From Pogonophryne albipinna (taxonomy: Eukaryota > Chordata > Actinopteri > Perciformes > Artedidraconidae), in assembly GCA_028583405.1 (NCBI GenBank), contig CM053246.1:22327570-22391569 (forward strand): a stretch of 64,000 nt of DNA, given 5' to 3'. A program made the position numbers and the translations under genes. Below, one piece after another: positions 12,387-13,997 of this stretch. The notes below the pieces were generated by a model. It was not told where the DNA came from. It ran no database searches and was given only the letters and a program-made list of their open reading frames with translations. Position 1 is the first letter of the stretch. Each line of letters starts with the position of its first letter.

Positions 12387-13997
12387 TCAGTTGTAGCAGT
12401 TAGTTTCACTGGCTTTACTGCAATGCACCGCAACGTGGCCAATGTCGCCACACCTGTAAGATTTCACCCTACTGCAACGTCTCTGGATGTGACCAAGCCC
12501 ACCGCAGGAATAGCACTTCCGGTCGTTGGCATGCCCACAGTCACGAGCCATGTGTCCTTGGTCTCCACACCGATAGCAGGACATTTCCTTGCCTCTTCCT
12601 CGACCCCTGCTGCCGCCGCCACGACCACCATCAACGCCTCGACCACTTTGACTAGTGGGACCATGCTTGGTCTTCTGTTTTCTAAACATGTTTTTGTCCA
12701 TAGCACGAGTGATCACACAAGAGGACGTGATGTCTGCCAACACTGTAGAGCTCTCCTCAGACCTTGACTCAATCGGACCGCCAGTCACTAAAAGCACAGG
12801 GGGAACATCAGTCCAGACTCTGCTACCTGCCAAACCGTTGCCCAGGATGAACTGTATCCCCTCGATTGGCAAAGCTGGACGTACACCAACAGCCACCTCA
12901 CCCTTAACAAGACCACAGTCAATATACATCCCATGAACAGGAATAGGAAGAGCTTTTAATCGCATTCCCCAACTCAGAAGGGTGTCACCAGTGTCACTTT
13001 GATAAGACAGAGGCAAAACAGAGTCAACAATATAGGAGTCAAAAGCCCCTGTGTCTCGCAAGATTTTGATTGGAACTCTGACATTACTACCTACCAATGA
13101 CACCAAGCCGTCTCGTATAAATGGAGCATAAGATGCCAAAACCTCAGATCCACCTAAGTGGGATGTAAGCACATCGGCAACACAGCAGCTTTCCACAGGA
13201 GCAGCCAACGCAACAGGCCCAACAAAATATCTTCCTCCCTCAGATTTTGCTCTAAGCGCAGGACAGTATGCCTTCCAATGGCCTTTTTCGCGACAGTAGT
13301 GGCAAATATCATTATTATCCCCCTCAGATTTGACCAAACCCAAGTTCCTTGGCTCCATCCCAAATGAACCAACCTTTCTACTTCCCTCAAAAACAGCCAG
13401 GGCCCCAGAACGCCCTTCGAACCTGCTCTTATGAAGCAACACAAACTCATCAGCTGCCACAGCAGCTTCAGCCGCAGAAGTGACCCTGTGTTCTGTTATG
13501 TAAGTAGCAATCTTGTGTGGAAGAATATTTTTGAACTGTTCCAAAGTCATGAGCTCACACAAATCGTCAAAAGTAGTGACGTCAAGAGCAGTTAACCAAC
13601 ACTTAAAATGAACAGACAAATCCCTCGCCATCTCCACATATGTTTGATCTTGTTTTTGCTCAAAGGACCTAAAACGCTGTCGATAGGCCTCTGGCACCAG
13701 TTCATATGCTCTAAGCACCGCCGATTTTATTTTACTATAGCTAGAGCTATCCTCAAGACATAAGGAGGAATATGCTGACTGCGCTCTCCCTGTGAGAACA
13801 CACTGAAGCATCAGAGCGCAGTCCGCATCAGGCCAATCTCTAGCCCTAGCTACACGTTCAAAAAGCAAAAAAAAAGTGTCAGGATCACTTTCATTAAATT
13901 GCGGTAACAAGCGCAAGTTGTTAGCATCGAACCGATGAGGATACCTGGGCACCTGTTCACCTTGCCGCTCACCCAACACCGCACCATCTCTGACCAT
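12387..13997 (-). CDS. Gag-protease polyprotein fused to CNBP-like zinc-knuckle array
   Basis: 536-codon open frame. Residues 15-190 are a capsid-like region (LPQFNESDPDTFFLLFERVA, AVLRAYELVPEAYRQRFRSF), close to the gag of element A. A gag CCHC knuckle lies at 232-245 (CHYCREKGHWKAYC). A retropepsin-like aspartic protease begins near 306, with catalytic DTG at 315-317 and a hydrophobic ILGNGLAG near 384-391. CVITRAM (427-433) is where gypsy-type pol normally goes on towards reverse transcriptase. Instead there is a Gly/Arg-rich stretch (453-470) and CCHC knuckles at 474-487 and 495-508, one at 513-526 whose first Cys is Ser, and a fourth cut by a stop after CYN. Motifs such as CYRCGDQGHMARDC and CYSCGGLGHIQ are typical of vertebrate CNBP, a single-stranded nucleic-acid binding protein. 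An upstream in-frame stop (about 14010) makes 13997 the first ATG. Confidence 0.85.
   Translation of the reverse strand: MVRDGAVLGERQGEQVPRYPHRFDANNLRLLPQFNESDPDTFFLLFERVARARDWPDADCALMLQCVLTGRAQSAYSSLCLEDSSSYSKIKSAVLRAYELVPEAYRQRFRSFEQKQDQTYVEMARDLSVHFKCWLTALDVTTFDDLCELMTLEQFKNILPHKIATYITEHRVTSAAEAAVAADEFVLLHKSRFEGRSGALAVFEGSRKVGSFGMEPRNLGLVKSEGDNNDICHYCREKGHWKAYCPALRAKSEGGRYFVGPVALAAPVESCCVADVLTSHLGGSEVLASYAPFIRDGLVSLVGSNVRVPIKILRDTGAFDSYIVDSVLPLSYQSDTGDTLLSWGMRLKALPIPVHGMYIDCGLVKGEVAVGVRPALPIEGIQFILGNGLAGSRVWTDVPPVLLVTGGPIESRSEESSTVLADITSSCVITRAMDKNMFRKQKTKHGPTSQSGRGVDGGRGGGSRGRGRGKEMSCYRCGDQGHMARDCGHANDRKCYSCGGLGHIQRRCSRVKSYRCGDIGHVAVHCSKASETNCYN

Follow-up and report, generated by a model that had tools for sequence, protein, structure and literature searches.

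The 536-codon open frame on the minus strand of the window, by which we mean the whole 64,000-nucleotide stretch of Pogonophryne albipinna DNA analysed here, very probably belongs to a non-autonomous Gmr1-type retrotransposon that is present at some 30 loci and carries, in the place of pol, a cnbp-like host gene's coding sequence in spliced form, likely acquired by template switching. The frame (12387-13997) joins a SCAN-type gag and a DTG protease to a CNBP-like zinc-knuckle array; the frame itself and its domain matches bear out the first-pass annotation, which had read one gag, protease and knuckle polyprotein at this position. Judged by its sequence, the element is an LTR retrotransposon with a Gmr1-like Ty3/Gypsy gag.

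The element in the window

The window copy is laid out as follows.
14699-14914, minus strand: incomplete 5' LTR, made of R (14815-14914) and U5 (14699-14814) with no U3; the U3-R-U5 order is set by copies with two LTRs
14684-14696, minus strand: primer-binding site TGGGGGCTCGTCC; the motif is also present in three sister 5' pieces
13998-14698, minus strand: leader, 84-86% identical to the sister-copy leader
12387-13997, minus strand: open gag-protease-CNBP frame, 536 codons
13431-13925, minus strand: capsid and SCAN domain, residues 25-189
13263-13304, minus strand: gag's own zinc knuckle CHYCREKGHWKAYC, residues 232-245
12798-13145, minus strand: retroviral-type aspartic protease with DTG, residues ~285-400
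12669-12692, minus strand: 5' junction zone, residues ~436-443, past the sister homology and before the donor homology
12387-12668, minus strand: donor-derived part, which comprises the end of donor knuckle 1, a Gly-rich linker and the knuckle array and is delimited by matches to the donor coding sequence (CDS) and by linker matches
12537-12578, minus strand: captured knuckle CYRCGDQGHMARDC, a composite of the front of donor knuckle 2 and the end of knuckle 4
12474-12515, minus strand: captured knuckle CYSCGGLGHIQRRC
12420-12461, minus strand: captured knuckle SYRCGDIGHVAVHC, its first Cys lost in the window copy
12103-12386, minus strand: 3' untranslated part, homologous to the sister 3' UTR from about nucleotide 8
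12092-12102, minus strand: polypurine tract AAGGGGGTGGG
11900-12091, minus strand: incomplete 3' LTR, made of U3 (12000-12091) and R (11900-11999) with no U5

The frame encodes gag, protease and the CNBP part only, and leader, 3' UTR and LTR make up what remains of the 3.0-kb copy; integrase, reverse transcriptase (RT) and RNase H are absent, and the element is therefore not autonomous. The SCAN-type capsid in its gag is a Gmr1-like trait. TG..CA LTRs (pairs of 305-309 nt at L004, L006 and L007), a primer-binding site and a polypurine tract are present in the family, and we take the primer-binding site TGGGGGCTCGTCC to resemble tRNA-Pro. The knuckle tail of the predicted protein structure had a pLDDT below 50, and its shape was disregarded.

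The window copy has R at both outer ends (14914 and 11900) and no poly-A tail, which is the shape of an RNA genome, and its two 100-nt R repeats are 99% identical. Unlike the window copy, which lacks the 5' U3 and the 3' U5, the copies at L004, L006 and L007 have whole LTRs. A LINE-made copy of the element RNA was considered for the R-to-R shape and is not favoured: no poly-A tail and no clear target-site duplication were seen, and the flanks do not form one repeat. Remains of an L1-like LINE adjoin the copy, so LINE activity has touched the site. They comprise a coiled-coil ORF1-like frame recognised by eye, with no Pfam hit (10689-11513, plus strand), and an apparent ORF2 endonuclease start (..CVFLQETHS..; 11514-11899, plus strand) that is interrupted by the insertion of the element; the other flank does not continue the endonuclease. 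An inverted repeat pair (14968-15369 and 17375-17782; 82% identity over ~419 nt) also adjoins the element. Elsewhere in the window lie a second, broken Gmr1-like element (29537-30816 and 32212-32919), with its SCAN gag in two frames and a protease-like DTGSSQS frame seen by eye with no Pfam hit, and a 383-residue reverse transcriptase frame (RVT_1; 34434-35585), which by eye is of the non-LTR type.

Sister family, donor gene and trimming of the captured segment

The same genome holds copies of a sister family with a gag-protease ~82% identical to that of the element and with many frames of 1534 or ~1118 residues. DNA homology between sister and element stops near codon 436 in all four copies compared. 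Integrase follows the protease in L026, the one sister copy scanned there, and RT and RNase H end the frame in L042; these are two sister copies read in separate pieces. An integrase ahead of RT is a hallmark of Gmr1-like elements. Homology to the element returns ~12 nt past the sister's pol stop in three of four further 3' pieces; no match to the element was found in the fourth (L040), and sister 3' ends were absent from the first three 3' pieces (L030-L032). The homology stops before the captured segment and resumes after it, so donor sequence stands where the sister has integrase, RT and RNase H. The first-pass annotation had located the array where RT should begin; this has to be corrected, as the array occupies the point at which integrase begins in the sister. 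Some 24 nt at the 5' junction match neither the sister nor the donor, and the 5' crossover is for this reason not pinned; a TGGnCC-like similarity was seen, by eye only, in the 3' junction zone.

The ends of the two families are related. The primer-binding site is identical in the sister, and the LTR parts are mostly 75-80% identical to those of the element, with short R and U5 stretches at 75-90%. One sister 5' piece (L036, C15:19036600-19038600) has R and U5 95-98% identical to those of the window copy, as if LTRs had been exchanged or had come from a shared recent source. The ~1118-residue sister frames have, by eye, lost most of RT, and in copies L037-L039 a deletion appears to run from where RT starts until shortly ahead of the pol stop; the sister family would appear to have a defective subfamily of its own.

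A fish CNBP query searched against the same genome (1.07 Gb, 861 contigs) identified an intron-containing cnbp-like donor locus on contig C12 (G000:C12:13086386-13087500, within L073, C12:13084500-13089500). As read from the DNA, the putative gene has four coding exons separated by three GT..AG introns and encodes 198 residues with seven knuckles; its first exon is Gly-rich, with an unusual poly-glycine run, and its C-terminal end reads PEENCA. It has diverged from other CNBP: among 60 proteins (P0124-P0183), the top-scoring one shares 62.6% identity with it over 198 residues. The window element matches the spliced donor CDS at 375-559 with 89.7% DNA identity over 185 nt, across the join of exons C and D, and at 181-265 with 87% identity over 85 nt, across the join of exons A and B; the join of exons B and C is spanned in the longer-type copy L074. 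The linker opens with residues from the end of donor knuckle 1, which read AKHCPTGQSG in the donor itself and TKHCPTSQSG in the majority of copies. The donor exon joins kept in the element are seamless and without introns, and the segment is thus the spliced form. The proposal, made from the window alone, that an LTR element had captured a spliced host mRNA is upheld by the intron-bearing donor in the genome and the intronless joins in the element; an intronless host coding segment within an LTR element, with its intron-bearing donor elsewhere, is also what marks a Bs1-like capture.

The captured part carries the CNBP-specific knuckle sequence and a Gly/Arg-rich box. Its last 72 residues score up to 152 bits against fish CNBP and 14.5 bits against the best of 117 fish gag proteins, which agrees with the earlier description of the knuckles as CNBP-like rather than gag-like; a better match to gag than to CNBP was looked for and was absent. 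Compared with a mosaic of other fishes' CNBP, 11-14 of 66 residues differ in the window copy, P0001, P0002 and P0121. The window element has three CCHC knuckles, one of them broken, against seven in the donor. CCHC knuckles often end gag proteins, and the array does match HIV nucleocapsid weakly (E 2e-5), as it might if native Ty3/Gypsy nucleocapsid knuckles had converged on CNBP. Such convergence has next to no probability in view of the scores against CNBP and gag, the 185-nt match to donor exons at 89.7% DNA identity, the separate knuckle that the gag has of its own and the end of sister homology ahead of the array in every copy compared. The donor gene and its exon joins rule native gag knuckles out.

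The captured segment was shortened at direct repeats. The stretch of donor missing from the window type is 132 nt long, which is exactly the distance between the copies of a 9-nt direct repeat CACATGGCC (CDS 247/379), and the longer type, represented by L074 and by protein also by P0032, P0122 and P0123, lacks 72 nt, the spacing of a 13-nt repeat GTGCTACAACTGC (CDS 282/354). Both losses are in frame, and both have their endpoints inside exons. The 132-nt gap, which equals the CACATGGCC spacing in the donor, agrees with the suggestion that middle knuckles had been lost between ARDC repeats. This loss may have been either one jump or a loss of 72 nt and then 60 nt; a strict two-step order is not required, as one jump of 132 nt suffices for the window type. 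Exon skipping was rejected as the cause of the missing knuckles, because the repeat pairs at CDS 282/354 and 247/379 lie inside exons and not at their edges. Deletions at direct repeats would fit reverse transcription.

The array and the 3' end were trimmed separately, because L022 and L074 combine these losses differently. L022 has the 132-nt loss, yet ahead of its element 3' UTR it retains the final part of the donor CDS and, from the donor 3' UTR, two pieces; L074 has the 72-nt loss only and retains the donor stop, with no match to the donor 3' UTR. The window type has lost the donor stop and 3' end and stops in the last knuckle, with a ..NCYN ending that is common to P0001, P0002 and P0121. 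The linker unit VDGGRGGGS (window 12609-12635; also L023, L080 and L082) varies in copy number by locus, like a coding minisatellite.

Spread of the family and selection on the captured part

The genome yielded at least 90 matches to the element, from which we took L001-L008 and 17 others reaching the linker or knuckles. The 5' junction is common to all 25 chosen loci, which were picked for a match reaching the junction region and so give no unbiased rate, and the 3' junction is common to 21; the exceptions are L009, which runs into N, and L022, L024 and L025, which differ or are cut. Nine more loci have knuckles (L074-L082), and in five of these the 5' junction is complete. L016-L018 (C15:25516000-25538000) form a tandem triplication of near-identical copies at intervals of ~9.3 kb, and L025 may be the same locus as L076; the count is therefore given as some 30. 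Two LTRs are present at L003, where the 3' LTR is cut short, and at L004, L006 and L007, and the members of a pair differ at 5/307 (L006), 6/308 (L004), 7/305 (L007) and 3/249 (L003) sites. Of the three loci where both LTRs are whole, L007 showed, by eye, a target-site duplication (CACT), and L004 and L006 did not.

The gag-protease with its array was also found in 6 of 133 database proteins examined (the best 120 of 308 from one list and 13 of 13 from another; three per list), which come from Gymnodraco acuticeps, Trematomus bernacchii (three), Pseudochaenichthys georgianus and Champsocephalus esox. By these protein sequences, the same fusion is present in four notothenioid genera. PMC10256766 dates the Antarctic notothenioid radiation to 10.7 million years. 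A scan of IMG/VR with the frame found nothing. The first-pass annotation had asked for a full-frame search for further copies with the same junction, and the chosen loci and the four genera supply them; a junction unique to this assembly was looked for and was absent.

The L1-like remains beside the window copy could be taken to favour an assembly artefact, or a processed cnbp pseudogene joined by chance in frame to one gag copy. The identical junction at all the chosen loci and in proteins of other species makes this so improbable that we discard it, and the captured segment moreover is flanked by the gag-protease on one side and by the 3' UTR and LTR of the element itself on the other. A LINE-made processed pseudogene, as a stand-alone copy of the mRNA, was likewise rejected, the host segment standing behind gag-protease at each of the 25 loci. 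Copies P0121, P0123 and P0001 bear the database names 'cold shock protein 1-like', 'cellular nucleic acid-binding protein-like' and an uncharacterized LOC gene. That copies are named as genes (LOC117552092 among them) and that the window frame is intact would suit a domesticated host gene, a co-opted gag-CNBP fusion and not a mobile element; some 30 dispersed loci in one genome, broken copies among them, and the presence of LTRs, primer-binding site and polypurine tract make domestication very unlikely.

The preferred explanation remains a mobile, non-autonomous element. The RNA of the element and the cnbp-like mRNA would have been co-packaged, and a template switch between them would have joined the two, so that spliced cnbp-like coding sequence replaced the integrase, reverse transcriptase and RNase H region. 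The element would be moved in trans by enzymes of the sister family, as is suggested by the sister's long open frames and related ends. Its product would be cleaved by its own protease and packaged, and the captured knuckles are predicted to act as additional nucleocapsid-like RNA-binding modules. The extra RNA-binding capacity that the first-pass annotation ascribed to the polyprotein accordingly stays a prediction.

Selection on the captured part was assessed among the copies. The knuckle pN/pS is 0.41 (22 copies); with L014, L017, L018 and L022 left out it is 0.44 (18 copies). The codon bootstrap spans 0.20-1.19, so that the ratio is not significantly below neutrality. The neutral expectation for the knuckles, 0.70-0.97, is rough owing to odd 3' UTR counts (334 transitions, 586 transversions). 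Gag is clearly constrained (0.36, 0.26-0.49, 18 copies; point range 0.36-0.39), and the protease (0.68, 0.47-0.98, 21 copies) is inseparable from the rough neutral range. Compared with the donor, window-type copies give 0.27-0.44, in which the donor's own constraint is included, and the older copies L022 and L074 give 1.4-1.6 from few changes. All 12 zinc ligands are kept in 17 of 21 scorable copies, the window copy not among them, and the chance probabilities in a zinc-ligand test, run against the mosaic of CNBP from other fishes, were 0.04-0.09. Because the bootstrap spans neutrality and because of these chance probabilities, selection on the captured knuckles is only suggestive and is not claimed.

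Two readings of the knuckles bear on these results. The first is that they are passive passengers, which arrived by the template switch and contribute nothing, the element spreading through ends and a leader that are recognised in trans; we give it a little short of an even chance. It is favoured by the bootstrap range, by the donor knuckles and donor end lost in the window type and by the zinc ligand missing in the window copy and three others of the 21. Against it stand the match free of stops at five of the eight loci L001-L008, the full set of ligands in the other 17 copies, deletions that keep the frame and a knuckle point estimate near that of gag. The second reading, possible but rather doubtful, is that the array works as a second nucleocapsid, the CNBP knuckles drawing the element RNA, and perhaps CNBP target mRNAs, into particles driven by the sister.

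Relation to known systems and significance

The closest parallel is Bs1 of maize, which, according to PMC13317346 and PMC5408686, captured segments of a plasma-membrane H+-ATPase and of two other host genes. Both are LTR elements with host coding segments, and the title of a cited paper names a hybrid open reading frame for Bs1. Bs1 is a plant element with three donors, whereas the fish element has one vertebrate donor and carries a nucleic-acid-binding protein behind an open gag-protease; unlike for Bs1, other captured forms and the donor locus are present in one fish genome. Template switching during reverse transcription is the mechanism described for captures of host mRNA by LTR elements in PMC5408686, which also relates the LTR-mediated retroposition of Tan et al. 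(2016) in mosquito, zebrafish, chicken and Drosophila. As described there, that process yields retrocopies of host genes, whereas the fish family keeps its gag-protease and holds the host segment within the polyprotein.

The SCAN domain derives from Gmr1-like Ty3/Gypsy elements, according to PMC7231272. The fish element shares the SCAN-type gag with them, and its sister family has integrase straight after the protease; unlike them, the fish element has a CNBP array instead of integrase, RT and RNase H. Acute transforming retroviruses, which carry transduced cellular genes, have gag fused in frame with the spliced coding sequence of a cellular gene and replicate in trans. The fish element differs from these in being an endogenous LTR retrotransposon that keeps gag-protease, with no envelope seen in the element. 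No report of a CNBP capture by an LTR element was found in the literature searched, as far as the partial texts of its sources extend. LTR elements with host genes are known; new here is a vertebrate family with a host RNA-binding protein behind gag-protease, and also new is the presence of the donor and of differently trimmed captured forms within one genome.

For the most part, captures of host genes by LTR elements have come to notice as finished products. In the present case a single genome contains the intron-bearing donor, a sister with RT and integrase, L022, L074 and the trimmed form, which makes up most of the loci read, and much of the history is therefore readable. Copies of the element have been entered in databases as host CNBP-like or cold-shock genes, which calls for caution in annotation. 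The family also poses a testable question, whether a captured host RNA-binding domain alters what a retrotransposon particle packages. If the second-nucleocapsid reading were true, the capture of a host protein would have made a defective copy a successful parasite of its own relatives.
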